DNA of 64,000 nucleotides from Citrifermentans bemidjiense Bem (GTDB lineage Bacteria; Desulfobacterota; Desulfuromonadia; Geobacterales; Geobacteraceae): the NCBI RefSeq assembly GCF_000020725.1, contig NC_011146.1, positions 1,301,501 through 1,365,500 of the forward strand, written 5' to 3'. The notes beneath the pieces are model-generated. The model was not told the origin of the DNA and ran no database searches. It saw only the letters and a list, made by a program, of their open reading frames with translations. Below, piece by piece: positions 25,012-34,199 of this stretch (the first letter of the stretch is position 1; each line of letters opens with the position of its first letter). The position numbers and the translations under genes were made by a program.

Positions 25012-25358
25012 GGTCCATAGCTTCTCCCCATCTCATAACCCGCGCGGCGTCGGTCTTTGGCACGCAATACCTTTCGCCAATCACCGCGCCGCCATGGCTT
25101 CACTACTCCCGCTACATTAATCCGCCGTCCCCCCCCCGACTTTTCCACTATCCTCACTTCGTTTCTTCATACGCTGGCAGGCGAGTTACCTGCGACTTAC
25201 CTGTCCTCAAAGAGGCGTCAACCGCACTGCTGCAACAAGTAGTGCTGCACAAACAATAGGCTAGTCTGCCTCTTTTTTCATTGGAATGGTAACAGGGATC
25301 ACGCAAGCGCCGCGTGTAGTTCTCATGAAATTGATAACTTAACGAGGTTTTGCCGGTG
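25012..25358. other. Intergenic region upstream of the ANTAR-type leader
   Basis: About 350 bases. No gene seen. Upstream activator sites for the following sigma-54 promoter may lie here. A weak hairpin AGGC/GCCT followed by CTTTTTT is present near 25259-25278. Confidence 0.45.
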
Positions 25359-25374
25359 TGGCATGGCTTCTGCT
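25359..25374 (+). promoter_or_regulatory. Sigma-54 (-24/-12) promoter
   Basis: TGGCATGGCTTCTGCT has GG and GC separated by exactly 10 bases and matches the consensus TGGCACG-N4-TTGCW at most positions. Predicted start is near 25385, at the beginning of the leader described next. Confidence 0.75.
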
Positions 25375-25384
25375 ATCTCTGGGC

Positions 25385-25467
25385 AGGACGCGAAGCACAA
25401 CGAAGTGCAGCGGACGATTAGACAGGCAATGGCGCCTTTCCACATTGGTGGGAGGCGCCTTTTTTTA
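25385..25467 (+). promoter_or_regulatory. Candidate ANTAR-type antitermination leader with terminator
   Basis: Two short stems with six-base loops are followed by an overlapping terminator. P1 is GCAC-AACGAA-GTGC (25395-25408). P2 is AGGC-AATGGC-GCCT (25424-25437). Both loops have A at position 1 and G at position 4, the signature bound by ANTAR-domain antiterminators. The terminator stem uses GGCGCCT (25431-25437), part of P2, paired with AGGCGCC (25453-25459), with inner CCAC/GTGG, followed by a T-run to 25467. P2 and the terminator are mutually exclusive. Known from ANTAR biology: the regulator stabilises P1-P2 and prevents termination. The downstream gene is the outer-membrane protein at 25558. 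No ANTAR protein is encoded in this window. Confidence 0.75.
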
Positions 25468-25557
25468 TTCATCGAAAGGGGGAGGATCAGCCGCGGCGGC
25501 TGACAGGCTCATACGGTTAAGGTAGTACCAAATCCAAAATTACAAAGGAGTAAGTAG

Positions 25558-26316
25558 ATGAAAAAAACCATGAAGACCCTTATTATGGCAACGGCGCTGA
25601 CCATGGCAACCACCGGAATCGCAATGGCGACCCCTTCCACCCAGATCTGGATCCCGTCGACGGACGTCCAGGGGTACAAGAGCCTGCACCTTGGCATCGA
25701 CAACTACACCCGCACCTCCAACAACTCCGCCGTGAGCCACGTCTACGACCTTGGCCTCACCGCTGGCGTTCTCCCCTTCGAGAAGCTGCAGGGCGAGGTC
25801 GGTATCGACTACATCACCAACGGCAACAACGGTTACGACAGCCAGCCGCTCTACTTCAACGCCAAGCTCGGCACCCCCGAGGGCTCCCTCTTCGAAGGCT
25901 CGCCTGCGCTCGCCCTCGGCGGTTACGGCTTCGGCACCAACCGGGACAAGGGGAGCGCCTTCCGTACCGATCAGGACGTGATTTACGGCCTGGCAGCGAA
26001 GACCTTGCCCGTTGTCGGGCGCCTTTCCGCCGGCTACTACGTCGGCAACGATAAACTGCTGCTCGACGTCAACGGCAACAAAGAAAACGACGGCGTGCTC
26101 CTCTCCTGGGACCGCACCATGAGCGAGATCTCCGACAAGCTATGGGTTGCAGTCGACTACCAGGGTGGCAAGAACGCCCTCGGCGCACTGAGCTTCGGCG
26201 CTTCCTGGGCCTTCGCGAAAAACGTTTCCGTCATCTTCGGCTACGACATCTACAACGAGAAGAAGCTGGCAGGCGAGAACACCTTCACCACCCAGCTCGA
26301 CATCAACTTCCCGTAG
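25558..26316 (+). CDS. Putative outer-membrane beta-barrel protein
   Basis: A 252-residue protein with a signal peptide (residues 1-23, AMA|TP) and AAGGAG before the ATG. The mature chain is made of alternating amphipathic strands ('SLHLGIDNYTR', 'VYDLGLTAGVLPFEKLQGEVGIDY', 'LALGGYGFGT', 'GRLSAGYYVG', 'LSFGASWAFAKNVSVIFGYDIYN') and ends in '...LDINFP', an aromatic near the C-terminus as in outer-membrane barrels. No porin family is recognised for certain. Expression appears controlled by the sigma-54 promoter and ANTAR-type leader upstream, which points to nitrogen-status control by analogy with Geobacter nitrogen-fixation regulation. Confidence 0.85.
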   Translation: MKKTMKTLIMATALTMATTGIAMATPSTQIWIPSTDVQGYKSLHLGIDNYTRTSNNSAVSHVYDLGLTAGVLPFEKLQGEVGIDYITNGNNGYDSQPLYFNAKLGTPEGSLFEGSPALALGGYGFGTNRDKGSAFRTDQDVIYGLAAKTLPVVGRLSAGYYVGNDKLLLDVNGNKENDGVLLSWDRTMSEISDKLWVAVDYQGGKNALGALSFGASWAFAKNVSVIFGYDIYNEKKLAGENTFTTQLDINFP

Positions 26317-27480: not shown

Positions 27481-28173
27481 ATGAAAGGACTATTTACTAT
27501 ATCGCTCTGTTCAGCGGCCCTGTTCCTGGCTGGGCTTATCTCTGTGGGCCACGCAGCGAACTATTGCCTTGACGCGAATAACAACGACCTGTGCCCTAAT
27601 AGCATTCATACGAAGCACCAGGCGTTCATGGATGACTGCAAGGGGTGTCATGACCTTAGCAGCTCGTTTGTGGCGTCGAATTCATTCTTCAAGGATAGTT
27701 CCAAGCGAGCCTTTCAGCCCGGCGGTCCCGCCCCGATTTTCGTCCCGTCCGGTGCGTGGAGCTCGCCTCAGACAACTAACCCGGCGACTTGCTCAAACAT
27801 AGCGTGTCACAACATCCCGCCCGGTACTTTCACCTACTACATATATGACTATGGCATTGATGCGTCAGTGCCTGTGACAGTCAGCTACGGCGGCATGAGC
27901 AATGCGACTGCCAAATGGCAGGACGACCCTGCCACCAACTGCAACAGTTGCCACGGCAACCCCCCCCTGGGGAACGTGTGGCATAACGGCTCTCATGGCA
28001 ACGGTATACCGGGGGGGAATAATTGTGAGACATGTCACCCCGATGCGAAATCAAATGTGGCACCTGACGGGAAGACTATAGTCTCCAATTACATCACCGC
28101 GCCAAGTCAACACCAGAATGGAACTGTGAACGTAGTTGCGAACTTTAACTCCAACTGTTTCGGCTGTCACTGA
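27481..28173 (+). CDS. Small multiheme cytochrome with 4 CXXCH and 1 CX4CH
   Basis: A 230-residue protein with a signal peptide (to about residue 25, GHA|AN) and GGGAG before the ATG. Motifs in order: CKGCH, CSNIACH (CX4CH), CNSCH, CETCH, and CFGCH as the last five residues. CX4CH pairs followed by CXXCH are the recognised Geobacter 'CxxxxCH...CXXCH' domain type; whether CX4CH carries heme in every case is not settled. First cytochrome of a six-gene series on this strand. Confidence 0.92.
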   Translation: MKGLFTISLCSAALFLAGLISVGHAANYCLDANNNDLCPNSIHTKHQAFMDDCKGCHDLSSSFVASNSFFKDSSKRAFQPGGPAPIFVPSGAWSSPQTTNPATCSNIACHNIPPGTFTYYIYDYGIDASVPVTVSYGGMSNATAKWQDDPATNCNSCHGNPPLGNVWHNGSHGNGIPGGNNCETCHPDAKSNVAPDGKTIVSNYITAPSQHQNGTVNVVANFNSNCFGCH

Positions 28174-28212
28174 TACGGATTTGCACTACTAACTGGATAA
28201 CCGGTGATCCCT

Positions 28213-31200
28213 ATGACGAAAAGACTGATACTTATAGCACTGTTCATTAGTATGCTGGGCATTATAAGCACCAATGCCGGCGCAGTTGATGCTCCTCATA
28301 CCAGCGTCTGCATAACGTGTCATAACTCGGCGGCGCCTGCGGACAGCAACCTGTTCAATGGTACCTGCCTGAGGTGTCACAGCGCGACCGGCTCCTCTGT
28401 TTACAAGTTCAGCGATGCCGACCAGGGCAACACCTCGCACCGGTGGGGGGGGAGTGTCGTCAATCCCGGCGCCGGTGCCCAGTCGCCATCTGTAGGGGCT
28501 ATGGTTCAGGTGCAGGGCTACACCGGGTCCCAGCTCTCCTGTGCGAACTGTCATAACCCGCATCTGGATACCAACAAGAGGTTCCAGCGTATCGCCAATG
28601 GCGCTGACCAGATGTGTGTCGATTGCCACCGGTCGCGTGCTGCAACAACCGCTGCAGCAGGAACCCACCCTGTTTTCGTCGGATATAGCGCCGCAGTGAA
28701 AGCTTCCCCTGCGAAGTTTGTCGGCATGACCCCGGTAAACGCGAATCCCGCCAATCCGACCTCTGACCTCGGAAGCCGGTTCAGCGCCGACGGCAAAATT
28801 CTTTGTTCGACCTGTCACAGGGTGCACTCCGCGGATTCGCGCAGCTCTAACTACGTGAACGGCTTCAAGAACCTCAGTTCCGGCGACGGCAATATCCTGC
28901 GCACCAACCCGCGCGGAGCAACAGTCGCCCCCGGAGCCCCAGATTCCATAAACATCTGTACTAACTGTCATGCTGGCAAGATGAGTCACAACGGGAAGGG
29001 ACAGGACATCCAGTGCATCGACTGCCACGGCGCCCACGTTGAGTACGATCCCAGGGACCCGACTGCTGCGCAGGGCCGCAACATCAAACTTATCCGCCGC
29101 TATATGCCGGGGAGCAGCAGCCAGGTATTCTTCCGCTACACCGGCAGCCGCATGGAGTACAAGAACGGTTCCGGTACCGGTGTCTGTGAGGGTTGCCACA
29201 CCCCGCCTGCTTCCATTCCGGAACACGCAAGCACCGATCCCAAGGTCTGCAACAAGTGCCATGCCCACAACAGCACCAAAGGTTCCTTTACGGCGTCCTG
29301 CGATAGCTGTCATGGGTATCCGCCGACGGTTACCCAGTGGTTCGATCCCGGAAAACCACACAGCAGCAACAATGACTGCAGTCTGTGCCACAACACCAGT
29401 CCCTCGGTGCACATGAACGGCATCCTTGATCTACGCTGCGACGGTTGCCACGGTTTCCCGCCCAACTATCCCAACGGCAGCACCAAGGCGAACAGCCACG
29501 GCAGCCATAATTTCAGCTGTGACAAATGCCACTTCGGGACGACCACGACCGGAACCACCATTACCAACACGGCCAACCACGAGAACGGCGTCTATGACGT
29601 CACCGCCGGGCCGGGCGCATCCTTCACCTATCAGTACCTCTCTACCGGCGGGACCTGCTCCAACATCAACTGCCACAGCGGTAACGGTATCCTCACCAAT
29701 CCGGCGCCGGTCAGTTGGGGGACCTCGCTAGGCTGCATCGGGTGCCACGGCGATTCCTCCACCCTCGCTTCCGGGTCGCATGCCAAGCACCTTCAAAAAG
29801 GAGCAGGCTGCGCCGATTGTCACTCCGCCACGGCAAAAACCAATACCACGCTGGTGGCAAACGGGGCGCACATGGACAGTGCCGTGGAAGTGAACGGCTC
29901 AAGGCTTGCCGGGATGAGCAGCAACAAGACCTGCACCAGCGCCTGCCACCTCGCAGCCACTCCGCAGTGGGGCGTAGCCAGCACCGGCGCCTGCGGTACC
30001 TGCCACGGCACCGTGCCGTCTCCGGGAAGCGCCCTGATAGCCAGCGGCGCCCACTTTGCCCACTTCTCAAGTTCGGCCACCTCCTACGGGCCGATGCTGA
30101 CGCAGACCTCCGTGACGAGTTGCCAGGCCTGCCATAGCAACAGCGGGGACCCCAGTCCGGCCCACGTGAATGGCGTCGTCGATTTTAATATCGGTCTCGG
30201 CTACTTGAGCGCTGGAACCGGCACCTGCACCCCCTGCCATCAGCAGCGGGTAAGCTGGACCTCCGGCGCGGTGACATGCGAGAGCTGCCATACAGGCACC
30301 CTCTCGGTGATCAACGGCGTCGCCGCCCAGGACAAGGGGCTCGCCGCCACCCGCGGCCACGGCGCAGCAGGGAAGGGATGTCTCTCCTGCCACGATAGGA
30401 ACCAGCGCCACATCGGTGGCGCCGGCAGGCTAATAGCTCCGCTCACCGTCAGCTTCAACGCTGAGTGCAGCTATTGCCACAACAATGCTGCGGTGGTGCA
30501 GGCAAACCACCTCAACATGGCCAGCCACGTGACCACTAAGGGCGGAGATGCCGCCATGGCGTGTACCACCTGCCACGATCCGCACGGCACCAGCAACCTC
30601 TCCCAGATCAGGACAGTGATCAACGGCAAGAGCATCACCTACACTGAAGCCGGCGCCGGTCTGGTCAACCTGACCACCAACATGGGACTTTGCCAGGTGT
30701 GCCACACCAAAACCGCGCACTACCAGGCAGGGGTTCCGGAAACCGGGGGGCACCCCACCACAGGCTGCCTCTCCTGCCACAGGCATGATTCCGCTAGGGC
30801 CGCCTTCATGCCGCTTGGTACCTGCGATGCCTGCCACGGCTATCCGCCGGCGCCCAAGCGCACCGCCAGCGCCGTGATCTTTGGCAGGATGAACAACTGG
30901 TCCAGCGCTCGCTTCGAGGACTACTCCGGCGGCGGCGGGGCTCACTTGGTGGCAGCGCACGTCTCGCCGTTCGCCAAGGCCTCGGAAGGGTGGGCCAACT
31001 GTGCTGTGTGCCACAACGCGGGTGTAACCGGCTCCGCACCGTACCACAAGATGGCCACTCCGGTTAAAGACTACATCGAAAACGTAACGGTCATGGTGGA
31101 CAACAGCTTGCGCTTCGCCAACAGCTTCACCGTCTACACCGGCGCGCGCCTCACCAGCGTCCCCGGTGCGAACGTCACCGGCAGCTGCTTCAACATCGCC

Positions 31201-31242
31201 TGCCACATGAGCCCGTCGGTCAGGTGGAGCAGCGAAAGATAA
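28213..31242 (+). CDS. Giant multiheme cytochrome, 26 CXXCH plus 3 variant motifs
   Basis: About 1009 residues. The ATG at 28213 gives the signal peptide MTKRLILIALFISMLGIIS..NAGA; a GTG at 28204 in the same frame is an alternative. I count 26 CXXCH motifs, two CX4CH (CSNINCH, CFNIACH) and one CX3CH (CTSACH). Recurrent 'CHGYPP' and 'C..CH.PHG' segments show internal modules. The last 150 residues are nearly repeated in the next gene ('NWSSARFEDYSGGGGAH', 'ASEGWANC'). A protein of this heme load could span or extend from the outer membrane as an electron conduit. Exact localisation is unknown. Confidence 0.94.
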   Translation: MTKRLILIALFISMLGIISTNAGAVDAPHTSVCITCHNSAAPADSNLFNGTCLRCHSATGSSVYKFSDADQGNTSHRWGGSVVNPGAGAQSPSVGAMVQVQGYTGSQLSCANCHNPHLDTNKRFQRIANGADQMCVDCHRSRAATTAAAGTHPVFVGYSAAVKASPAKFVGMTPVNANPANPTSDLGSRFSADGKILCSTCHRVHSADSRSSNYVNGFKNLSSGDGNILRTNPRGATVAPGAPDSINICTNCHAGKMSHNGKGQDIQCIDCHGAHVEYDPRDPTAAQGRNIKLIRRYMPGSSSQVFFRYTGSRMEYKNGSGTGVCEGCHTPPASIPEHASTDPKVCNKCHAHNSTKGSFTASCDSCHGYPPTVTQWFDPGKPHSSNNDCSLCHNTSPSVHMNGILDLRCDGCHGFPPNYPNGSTKANSHGSHNFSCDKCHFGTTTTGTTITNTANHENGVYDVTAGPGASFTYQYLSTGGTCSNINCHSGNGILTNPAPVSWGTSLGCIGCHGDSSTLASGSHAKHLQKGAGCADCHSATAKTNTTLVANGAHMDSAVEVNGSRLAGMSSNKTCTSACHLAATPQWGVASTGACGTCHGTVPSPGSALIASGAHFAHFSSSATSYGPMLTQTSVTSCQACHSNSGDPSPAHVNGVVDFNIGLGYLSAGTGTCTPCHQQRVSWTSGAVTCESCHTGTLSVINGVAAQDKGLAATRGHGAAGKGCLSCHDRNQRHIGGAGRLIAPLTVSFNAECSYCHNNAAVVQANHLNMASHVTTKGGDAAMACTTCHDPHGTSNLSQIRTVINGKSITYTEAGAGLVNLTTNMGLCQVCHTKTAHYQAGVPETGGHPTTGCLSCHRHDSARAAFMPLGTCDACHGYPPAPKRTASAVIFGRMNNWSSARFEDYSGGGGAHLVAAHVSPFAKASEGWANCAVCHNAGVTGSAPYHKMATPVKDYIENVTVMVDNSLRFANSFTVYTGARLTSVPGANVTGSCFNIACHMSPSVRWSSER

Positions 31243-31322
31243 TCAAGTTTCTGGATCAAATACCGATTCAGCTTGAACAATAAAAAGGGCAACAAAGGAA
31301 AGTATCTAAATTGGAGGGAAAG

Positions 31323-34199
31323 ATGTTACCTAAGTACGGAGGACGATGTTTGTTCGGGTTGGCACTTCTGGTGCTGACACTGATGACGCTTGGTGCCGGA
31401 CAGGCACAAGCTGCTTCGCAGTACAGCTATGACTGTACCTTCTGTCACCAAATGCCGCCGCTGGATTCCGCCAACGCGAAGAAGGACCCCAACACGGGCG
31501 CCATTCCCGGCAACCACCAGGGTCACGCTTCGGCAGCGGTCAATTCCTGCGCCAAGTGCCACGGCGACGTGAGCGGCTACGCCATGGGCCACAGGAACAA
31601 GACCATCGAGCTTGCCGACGGCATCGGCTACTCGCGGAAGATCGCAGCCGGGTTCGTGAACCAGACCTCGGTACCGCCGACCCCGATGGGTTCCTGCTCC
31701 ACCGCGGCCTGCCACAGTAACGGCAAGGGCACCCTTAAGGCCACCCCGGCCTGGGGCGCTGCACCGTTCCAGGCTCCCGGCGACTGCTCCCAGTGCCACG
31801 ACGTAGCTCCGGCTACCGGCAACCACCCGACACTCAATAGCAAGCACGCCTCCTACTTCGGCACCGGTACCGGCTCCTGCGTTAAGTGCCATACCGACCA
31901 CAGCGCTCAGGCAAAGCCCTTCAGCCACGCAACCTCCGCCGGCCGTGCCATCGAAGTGGTGCTCCCCGACGGCGGCTCCTTCGCCGGCAACCAGTGCGCC
32001 AACCTCTACTGCCACAGCAACGGCCAGGGTAGCTTCACCCCGCCGACCTGGGGCGCTTCTCTTAGCTGCGCCGGCTGCCACGGCGACGCGACCAGCAACA
32101 CCCTCTCCGGCAAGCACGCCAAACACGTGAACAACGCCGGCTTCCTCGGCACCAACTACGGCTGCGTGGAGTGCCACTCCGCCACCGTGACCGACAACAA
32201 CACTATCGGCAACTTCAACAACCACGTCAACAAGAACAAAGACGTCGCGGGCGCCCACGTAGGGACCCCGGTTGCCGGGACCTGCTCCACCTCCTACTGC
32301 CACACCGACGGCAAGGGAGTCCAGAAGACGGTTACCTGGACCCAGACCCAGGCGCTGGACTGCAAAAGCTGCCACGGCTCCGACACGGCGCCTGGTGCTG
32401 TCGCCTCCATCGCCGGCGAGCCTAACTACAAGAACGACGGTATGGACCAGCCGCGCGCCAACAGCCACGCAAACCACGTATTCAGCGCTGCCAGCTGCCA
32501 GAACTGCCACGTCAACACCACCACCGACGGCCTGACCATCAAGGCCGGCGCTCCGCACACCGACGGCACCCGCAACGTAGCAGCCGGCAACGGCAAGAGC
32601 TTCACCATCGCAGGGAACAGCTGCTCCGCAGTATCCTGCCACGACGGCGGCGGCAAGATCGCAGGCGTCGGCGCTGCCAAATGGGGCCAGTCGCTTGGCT
32701 GCAACGGCTGCCACGGCGACGCCGCAACCCTTACCACCAACGCCCACGCGGCTCACGTTTCCACCAAGGGCTATGCCTGCGACACCTGCCACGCGCAGAC
32801 CGTCACCGGCAGCACCACCTTTGCCGACAAGACCCTGCACGGCGACGCCATCGTCGAGGTTGCCGGCGTCAAGGTAACCAGCTTCGCCACCGACACCAAG
32901 AACTGCGCCACTTCCTGCCACCTTTCCGGCACCCCGAAGTGGAACGACAAGAACTCCGGCGCTTGCGGTACCTGCCATAAAGCGCTTTCCACCACCGCGA
33001 ACGGCCTGGTGAGCAGCAACGCCCACTCCGCCCACTTCACCGCAACCTACGGCCCGGGCTTCGACGGCGCCGCTGCCACCTCCTGCTCCGGCTGCCATAC
33101 CCCGAACACCGCGGCCAGCCACGCAGACGGCACGCTTAACCTCGCCATCGGCTACAACAAGATCGGCACCTGCTCCTCCTGCCACAAGCAGTCGACCAAC
33201 TGGACCACCGGGCGCGTTTCCTGCGAAAGCTGCCACAGCACCGCAGGGGGCCAGCTCTCCGTCATCGGCGCCCTCACCGCTCCGGACAAGACCCTGGCAG
33301 CGACCGCGGGCCACGGCAAGACCGGAATCAACCAGTCCTGCTCCGCTTGCCACGACGCCAACTCCGCACACATCAACGGCATAGCCGGCGACCAGAAGCG
33401 TCTCTTGGGCGCCTTGACCGGCGCGGACAACCAGGAATGTAACTACTGCCACACCGACGCAGGCAAGGTGGCCGGCGCCGCTCTGAACGTGAAGGTGCAC
33501 CGTCCCACCGGCGCACTCGGCGCCAAGTGCTCCGACTGCCACAACGCGCACGGTACCGCAAACAGCATGATGATTAACGGCACGATCAACGGGACCGCGG
33601 TGAGCTTCACCACCGTCAACACCTTCGCCAACGGAGCACGCACCGGCGTCTGCCAGGTCTGCCACACCACGACCCAGTACTTCACCAAGGCCGGGCAGCC
33701 GGAGGCAACCCACGTGGATTCCACCACGAACTGCCTCGAGTGCCACCAGCACAACCCGGCAACCGGCCTCGCCTTCGTTCCCAACGGCGGATGCGACGCC
33801 TGCCATGGCTACCCGCCGGCTCCGAGAAAAACCATCTCCGCAGTCACCTTCGGTGTCCAGGGCAACTGGTCTTCCGCCCGCTTCGAAGACTACTCCGGCG
33901 GCGGCGGCGCCCACGCGGTTGCAGCTCACATCAAGAAAGACGCCAAGCCTTCCGAGGGTTGGGCAAACTGCCTCCCCTGCCACAACGGCGGCAACGATGC
34001 TCACTCAAGGGCGCTGCCGATCAGGAACCACGTGGACAACGTCACCGTCAAGATCGATCCGCAGTACCGCTTCAGCGACGATCCGTTCCTGGGCTACACT
34101 TCCGCCCAGCTGGTCAACGGCGGGGTCAACAAGTCCGGCAGCTGCTTCAACGTGAGCTGCCACTTCAAGAAGACCAAGCCGTGGAGTATCGAAAGGTAG
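31323..34199 (+). CDS. Giant multiheme cytochrome, 21 CXXCH plus 6 variant motifs
   Basis: A 958-residue secreted protein. The ATG at 31323 follows GGAGGGA; an in-frame TTG at 31311 is rejected because it precedes that site. Signal peptide ends AQA|AS. Motifs: 21 CXXCH, five CX4CH (CSTAACH, CANLYCH, CSTSYCH, CSAVSCH, CFNVSCH) and one CX3CH (CATSCH). The N-terminus ('QYSYDCTFCHQMPPLDS', 'GNHQGHA', 'SCAKCHG') matches the start of the 1454-residue protein, while the C-terminus matches the preceding gene, so it is a link between two related architectures. Third base GC is very high, which creates long chance frames on the opposite strand. Confidence 0.94.
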   Translation: MLPKYGGRCLFGLALLVLTLMTLGAGQAQAASQYSYDCTFCHQMPPLDSANAKKDPNTGAIPGNHQGHASAAVNSCAKCHGDVSGYAMGHRNKTIELADGIGYSRKIAAGFVNQTSVPPTPMGSCSTAACHSNGKGTLKATPAWGAAPFQAPGDCSQCHDVAPATGNHPTLNSKHASYFGTGTGSCVKCHTDHSAQAKPFSHATSAGRAIEVVLPDGGSFAGNQCANLYCHSNGQGSFTPPTWGASLSCAGCHGDATSNTLSGKHAKHVNNAGFLGTNYGCVECHSATVTDNNTIGNFNNHVNKNKDVAGAHVGTPVAGTCSTSYCHTDGKGVQKTVTWTQTQALDCKSCHGSDTAPGAVASIAGEPNYKNDGMDQPRANSHANHVFSAASCQNCHVNTTTDGLTIKAGAPHTDGTRNVAAGNGKSFTIAGNSCSAVSCHDGGGKIAGVGAAKWGQSLGCNGCHGDAATLTTNAHAAHVSTKGYACDTCHAQTVTGSTTFADKTLHGDAIVEVAGVKVTSFATDTKNCATSCHLSGTPKWNDKNSGACGTCHKALSTTANGLVSSNAHSAHFTATYGPGFDGAAATSCSGCHTPNTAASHADGTLNLAIGYNKIGTCSSCHKQSTNWTTGRVSCESCHSTAGGQLSVIGALTAPDKTLAATAGHGKTGINQSCSACHDANSAHINGIAGDQKRLLGALTGADNQECNYCHTDAGKVAGAALNVKVHRPTGALGAKCSDCHNAHGTANSMMINGTINGTAVSFTTVNTFANGARTGVCQVCHTTTQYFTKAGQPEATHVDSTTNCLECHQHNPATGLAFVPNGGCDACHGYPPAPRKTISAVTFGVQGNWSSARFEDYSGGGGAHAVAAHIKKDAKPSEGWANCLPCHNGGNDAHSRALPIRNHVDNVTVKIDPQYRFSDDPFLGYTSAQLVNGGVNKSGSCFNVSCHFKKTKPWSIER

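Follow-up and report, generated by a model that had tools for sequence, protein, structure and literature searches.

The promoter and leader of an outer-membrane protein gene

The window analysed in this study is a stretch of 64,000 nucleotides from the genome of Citrifermentans bemidjiense Bem, which consists of a single contig of 4,615,150 bases; its close relatives are named Citrifermentans and Geomonas. On the + strand of the window, an outer-membrane protein gene is preceded by a sigma-54-type promoter element and a putative ANTAR-target leader, with the following features:

25359..25374, + strand: sigma-54-type -24/-12 promoter element TGGCATGGCTTCTGCT, read directly and conserved in the genus
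25385, + strand: expected transcription start, inferred from the spacing rule of sigma-54 promoters, which places the start about 12 nt after the -12 GC
25395..25408, + strand: hairpin P1, loop AACGAA with A at position 1 (A1) and G at position 4 (G4), from sequence, folding, conservation and paired changes
25424..25437, + strand: hairpin P2, putative antiterminator, loop AAUGGC with A1 and G4, from sequence, folding and conservation
25431..25466, + strand: intrinsic terminator, stem 25431-25459 and U-tract 25460-25466, from sequence and folding, kept in 15 alignment rows
25474..25502, + strand: conserved GAAAGGGGGAGG followed by a hairpin CAGCCG..CGGCUG, from the genus-locus alignment
25558..26316, + strand: outer-membrane protein gene, 252 aa, with a signal-peptide-like N-terminus and a predicted 12-stranded barrel

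The promoter element has GG at -24 and GC at -12 with the fixed spacing of sigma-54 promoters. P1 consists of GCAC (25395-25398), the loop AACGAA (25399-25404), and GUGC (25405-25408), and P2 consists of AGGC (25424-25427), the loop AAUGGC (25428-25433), and GCCU (25434-25437); each stem has 4 bp, and a linker of 15 nt separates the hairpins. Because the 5' arm of the terminator begins inside the P2 loop, P2 and the terminator are mutually exclusive. Direct reading of the sequence confirmed the original prediction, which had described a -24/-12 element, two A1/G4 hairpins, and a terminator reusing P2 at these positions. The leader thus has the layout of ANTAR-target RNAs, with two hairpins of at least 3 bp, six-base loops, A1 and G4 in both loops, and a terminator overlapping P2, and its linker falls within the range of 2-25 nt given for such RNAs in the accessible part of PMC8164766.

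Folding of the whole leader yielded P1 and the terminator at -32.8 kcal/mol (z -3.60), and none of 200 shuffles was as low. When the leader was cut at 25442, P1 and P2 folded instead (z -2.11; 3 of 200 shuffles as low). These two predicted folds are as expected of an antiterminator/terminator pair.

We considered whether the site might be a chance resemblance, in which a promoter-like site and a terminator stand beside hairpins that are merely ANTAR-like. Two-hairpin motifs alone are not rare, with three on the + strand and one on the - strand of the window compared with a mean of 1.30 per strand in shuffled windows. Nevertheless, hairpins with an overlapping terminator did not arise in any of 150 one-strand dinucleotide shuffles of the window, and the combination of both with a -24/-12 element occurred at a single site in the window, the leader at 25359-25466. 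The leader is also conserved within and beyond the genus, and a chance origin is hardly credible. General-purpose searches contributed little: an Rfam scan of the window at gathering level found only two tRNAs and left the leader unmatched, two sRNA families reached E 0.37 and 0.45 over it, well short of their gathering scores, and a generic scanner for sigma-70 promoters and terminators, which is blind to sigma-54 sites, found nothing beyond chance (one terminator-like site compared with 0.7 in shuffles).

Further elements flank the leader. GAAAGGGGGAGG and its small hairpin lie between the terminator and the ribosome-binding site and are conserved across the genus loci; a similar element, GAAAGGGGG, follows many leaders in other genera and the glnK-amtB leader of the same genome. 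A c-di-GMP-type riboswitch was considered for the GAAAGGGGGAGG element and dropped in view of the lack of an Rfam match. Upstream of the promoter, TGCACAAACAATAGGC followed by a tiny AGGC-GCCT hairpin and a T-run (window 25246-25278) recurs at many genus loci, and candidate readings of this element are an activator site or the end of an upstream transcript. Farther downstream, past the barrel gene and a tRNA, three adjacent ORFs (230, 1012, and 962 aa; window 27481-34199) contain many CXXCH haem motifs.

Conservation of the leader, other genes that carry it and the ANTAR protein

The barrel gene was present in all 19 genomes of the genus, and the full leader, comprising the -24/-12 element, both hairpins, and the terminator, was found at 17 of the 21 closest genus loci (L002-L022, own included). 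Fifteen of these leaders were read in an alignment, and the other two (L018 and L019) lie 264 and 259 nt upstream of the gene; P1 of L005 and L013 was read from the genus alignment, the automatic choice there being a different hairpin. Among the remaining loci, L017 and L020 retained the -24/-12 element with a decayed leader, and neither promoter nor leader was seen at L021 and L022, which are paralogues elsewhere. No leader was apparent by eye at the more distant paralogues L023-L026 and L028-L030. The -24/-12 consensus TGGCAYRnCTYCTGCT occurred at 17 of the 21 genus loci, and a similar form precedes many relatives in other genera. In all 15 genus leaders of alignment A1, the terminator is present and remains incompatible with P2.

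A covariance model, R1, was built from 12 leaders, ten of the barrel gene, one of glnK, and one of nifH; the three leaders of the C. bemidjiense genome all belong to this training set, and their R1 scores prove nothing alone. Within the genus, the R1 search returned 30 loci, namely 17 barrel-gene leaders, 10 nifH leaders, two glnK-amtB leaders, and one leader of an amino acid permease gene. When R1 was applied to 91 loci from other searches, leaders were ranked directly 5' of the barrel gene in other genera, and at L088 and L093 the ranked leader preceded glnK of a glnK-amtB-barrel set. Across the order, 30 genomes had an R1 match 500 nt or less before the barrel gene; 17 of them belong to the genus (10 of these leaders being training sequences), 10 to other genera of the family, and three to family f3. 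The covariance search and the alignment of relatives suggested with the original prediction both bore it out, with 13 matching genomes outside the genus and the loop A1/G4 positions conserved.

The R1 match preceded the gene in 27 of the 38 own-family genomes that have it, and the other 11 showed no upstream match at this sensitivity. Genome-wide R1 searches scored at most 150 or 41 candidates per genome, which makes absences weak. The comparison of R1 matches with genes used 33 R1 rows and 66 gene rows, chosen where contigs could match, with nearly all gene rows of family f4 compared by eye only; matches away from gene-bearing loci were considered up to an E of about 0.02. In family f4, no convincing R1 match was found, although the gene stands beside glnK-amtB there.

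In 49 aligned R1 matches (alignment A4), pairing held in 100% of the P1 cells and 93% of the P2 cells. Two P1 pairs were changed on both sides, and both-side changes amounted to 20 cells compared with 3.7 in shuffles (none of 500 as high), in rows that are related to one another; the number of pairs with such changes (three) was no higher than in shuffles (205 of 500). The six-nt P1 loop was readable in 45 rows and unreadable in four, with A1 in 44 of the 45 and G4 in all 45, and among the 49 P2 loops A1 held in 47 and G4 in 49, in rows chosen by a model that favours these letters. Positions 2, 3, 5, and 6 of the P1 loop varied while A1 and G4 held. The exceptions recorded were G at P1 position 1 in L054, L155, L163, and L133 and G at P2 position 1 in L088 and L093.

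In the C. bemidjiense genome, the same promoter-leader anatomy occurs before nifH (L037:7130) and before glnK-amtB (L032:1196). In the glnK-amtB leader (L032:1196-1330), promoter and hairpins are preserved but no U-tract follows the terminator stem, and the terminator may therefore be weak. A homocitrate-synthase-like gene (L037:5763-5860) follows a -24/-12 element and one A..G.. hairpin, with no visible second hairpin or terminator, and was not counted as a leader bearer. The permease locus mentioned above, found in one genus genome (L054:1470-3054), combines a sigma-54-type element with an ANTAR-like leader.

The terminated RNA, of about 80 nt, might itself be the product that matters, acting as a regulatory small RNA or as a sponge for the ANTAR protein, with control of the barrel gene being secondary. 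Other bacteria have RNAs that act as sponges for ANTAR proteins, and R1 scored this leader highest in 17 of 19 genus genomes, with the reservation that the same leader made up most of the training set. The examined leaders, however, precede nitrogen-related genes, and in other genera the leader stands at a barrel gene that heads or joins a glnK-amtB set; we regard the sponge explanation as improbable.

The genome encodes one ANTAR protein (C1:3773063-3773221; gene L001:1099-1680), the partner that an ANTAR-target RNA calls for, and 46 of 48 family genomes encode one or two. ANTAR genes lie shortly upstream of a barrel/glnK/amtB set in several loci. A -24/-12-like element (score at least 16) was located near the gene start at 31 of 35 scanned ANTAR loci, own included. 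The receiver of the protein appears degenerate: Glu replaces the phospho-acceptor Asp in six proteins, comprising all five examined from the genus and one from genus g5, and the same six have RD, HD, or GD in place of the acidic pair DD. The C. bemidjiense protein has RD and keeps the Lys, and it had no match to Pfam Response_reg at E 0.001. Most other aligned ANTAR proteins of the family retain the canonical DD, D, and K. The original prediction had pointed to the ANTAR protein GnfR of Geobacter sulfurreducens; since the examined genus proteins have Glu in place of the receiver Asp, the GnfK/GnfR phosphorelay is not simply transferable.

The degenerate receiver also invites an explanation in which control lies at initiation only, the ANTAR protein being permanently active and the terminator being passed whenever sigma-54 starts a transcript. 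Both the Asp-to-Glu change in the six proteins and the -24/-12-like element before the ANTAR gene would fit it. Against it, the terminator and its exclusion by P2 have been kept in 15 genus leaders, an arrangement that would serve no purpose if no input varied, unless the varying input is the level of the ANTAR protein itself. We judge control at initiation alone to be rather unlikely, and regulated antitermination remains our preferred reading. This reading, already proposed in the original prediction, gains from the conserved motif, the constancy of A1 and G4, the shared leader before nifH and glnK-amtB, and the encoded ANTAR protein, all of which point to a sigma-54 promoter with a putative ANTAR leader.

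The barrel protein and its gene neighbourhood

The predicted structure of the 252-aa protein is a 12-strand barrel (pLDDT 86.2, pTM 0.79). The nearest structures by VIA-align were FapF (18.1), KdgM (17.7), the COG4313 channel (17.0), the oligogalacturonate porin (16.6), autotransporter barrels (about 16), and NanC (15.8). The 12-stranded or channel fold is shared with KdgM, NanC, FapF, and the COG4313 channel, whereas identity to them is only 8-10%. Sequence searches gave no match among PDB sequences at E 1, in Pfam at E 0.1, in NCBIfam at E 1, or in PHROGs at the threshold used, and for one relative of 45, a weak DUF7840 match came up at E 0.0063. TorF/Gcw_chp, a putative porin that neighbours glnK-amtB in proteobacteria, was considered as an identity for the protein and set aside on the absence of a profile match (Pfam E 0.1, NCBIfam E 1). 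Among the best 80 of 191 relatives were proteins of Desulfuromonadales and records labelled Nitrospirae, Elusimicrobia, and Bacteroidales; no relative was found in viral contigs and phage records. The gene is missing from all eight genomes of family genus g13. Acidic residues such as D48, E80, D84, and D200 are invariant in alignment A5, and by simple strand alternation they would face the presumed lumen, where they would suit a cation.

The gene neighbourhood links this family to ammonium transport genes. Outside the genus, 67 loci were kept from the best 80 of 191 relatives, and on the same strand within 3.5 kb of the barrel gene, Amt was encoded at 54 of them, P-II at 41, and either at 56. 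At the 45 loci with at least 3.5 kb on both flanks, Amt was found at 42 and Amt together with P-II at 31 under the same rule. Neither was found at 11 of the 67, of which eight do not have full flanks and three (L089, L116, and L132) do. A hand-picked sample from the order, 20 loci from family f4 and 20 from families f1-f3, showed Amt or P-II within 4 kb in 33 of 40 and neither in seven (one of these, L245, has both farther away). Pfam confirmed the neighbour labels in the samples taken (Amt 6/6, P-II 2/2). The neighbour search was limited to queries for P-II, Amt, ANTAR, NifH, KdpD, and the barrel.

The barrel gene stood beside glnK-amtB at 17 of 20 sampled loci of family f4. Because this family has the gene set with no convincing R1 match, the linkage seems older than the leader. 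In the genus of C. bemidjiense, Amt was absent within 3.5 kb at all 13 loci, and P-II was present at two of 13, both of which are paralogues. L245 carries the barrel, Amt, and glnK genes on one strand within about 8 kb with an R1 match before each, a layout that suggests how a split set could remain under one control. Barrel-gene paralogues in two genus genomes (L071:979-6452, L069:3440-9007, L112) adjoin P-II-like genes near kdpD, hinting at a second use near potassium transport.

The original prediction had assigned the protein to the nitrogen-limitation regulon and guessed that it may admit a nitrogen compound, and the gene order with Amt and P-II in several phyla lends that guess independent support. 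For its other suggestion, entry of a metal, no support came up in searches that had other targets. An alternative keeps control by the ANTAR protein but makes the barrel a non-specific porin for small solutes, or one for a different nitrogen compound such as amines, amino acids, or urea. General porins already let ammonium through, an amino acid permease gene is among the genes with an ANTAR leader in the genus, and the nearest folds include sugar-acid porins, a secretion channel, and autotransporter barrels, although a fold does not reveal a substrate. The neighbours in several phyla are nevertheless Amt and P-II, as judged with a short list of queries that could miss another recurring partner. 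A porin of this broader kind is a serious possibility, which we place somewhat short of probable.

A proposed nitrogen-limitation control unit and its relation to known systems

Taken together, these findings suggest that the region is probably a nitrogen-limitation control unit, in which leader antitermination governs an outer-membrane channel that works with Amt and P-II, most likely for ammonium. Nitrogen shortage would lead to sigma-54 initiation at the barrel gene, nifH, glnK-amtB, and the ANTAR gene, and the promoter would fire only with an active enhancer-binding protein. The transcript would then reach a terminator that acts by default. The single ANTAR protein would bind both A..G.. 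hairpins, hold P2, and block the terminator, and polymerase would read into the barrel gene. The 12-stranded channel would work with inner-membrane Amt and the P-II regulator, and it would most likely pass ammonium, or a small amine, across the outer membrane when this is scarce. In other genera the barrel gene mostly stands in one set with glnK and amtB, and in the genus of C. bemidjiense it lies on its own but carries the leader. Since a -24/-12-like element also precedes the ANTAR gene, the design is likely feed-forward, with one signal that would both make the antiterminator and start its targets.

A stronger version of this proposal is possible, and we offer it tentatively. The barrel may be an outer-membrane channel specialised for ammonium, the outer component that the Amt/P-II system of diderms in several phyla has lacked, and its expression in Citrifermentans and Geomonas may be set by a feed-forward gate, an ANTAR antiterminator supplied by sigma-54 that has dispensed with receiver phosphorylation. 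Accounts of ammonium uptake usually deal with the inner membrane alone. The barrel family is tied to Amt and P-II by gene order and, in the family of C. bemidjiense, also by the putative RNA switch of nitrogenase, and an outer-membrane door for scarce ammonium thereby becomes a directly testable question. An antiterminator with a degenerate receiver also seems to have been kept in use, which allows the signal it senses to be asked about.

Among the closest known systems is GnfK/GnfR, in which sigma-54 promoters and an ANTAR protein act on nitrogen genes in related bacteria. That arrangement resembles the one proposed here, whereas the acidic pair and phospho-acceptor Asp of its receiver are replaced by RD and Glu in the C. 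bemidjiense protein. The gene names GnfK and GnfR are used in the accessible part of PMC7962754. ANTAR-target leaders are described for eut of Enterococcus, nasF, and amiE, and putative ones for three nitrogenase-related transcription units of Pelobacter carbinolicus, in the accessible text of Ramesh et al. 2012 (PMC3369931). The leader described here resembles those of eut, nasF, and amiE in its two hairpins, its six-base A1/G4 loops, its terminator overlapping P2, and the ANTAR protein encoded in the genome; it differs in that it stands between a sigma-54-type promoter and a gene for an outer-membrane barrel, and in that binding is putative. The nitrogen theme of ANTAR leaders is already known from the accessible portions of PMC3369931 and PMC8164766, and those of PMC12316311 contain broad predictions of sigma-54 promoters before ANTAR-type genes. 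In a transcriptome of N2-fixing Geomonas, nifHDK and amtB were up, and the accessible part of the report (PMC10746287) does not mention the barrel gene.

For the protein itself, the original prediction stated that no role had been described, and none was found in the literature searched; the linkage of a porin with P-II and Amt is nonetheless already in print. Among openly licensed papers, the only pertinent one on a porin tied to amtB or glnK was PMC8115048, whose accessible text describes a PII-Amt-OmpL set in Flavobacteriales and viruses, with a predicted barrel porin of unknown substrate beside glnK and amtB, and states that the set occurs only in Flavobacteriales. We liken the present family to this set by gene context. 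The family differs from it in its wider occurrence, which includes Desulfuromonadales and records labelled Nitrospirae, Elusimicrobia, and Bacteroidales, in its varying gene order, and in that no relative was found in the viral contigs and phage records. Adjacency, which characterizes the PII-Amt-OmpL set, is absent from the C. bemidjiense genome, where glnK-amtB lies about 420 kb from the barrel gene. As far as the openly licensed literature searched shows, the ANTAR leader on a barrel gene, the wide linkage of the barrel family with Amt and P-II, and the degenerate receiver of the ANTAR protein are new.
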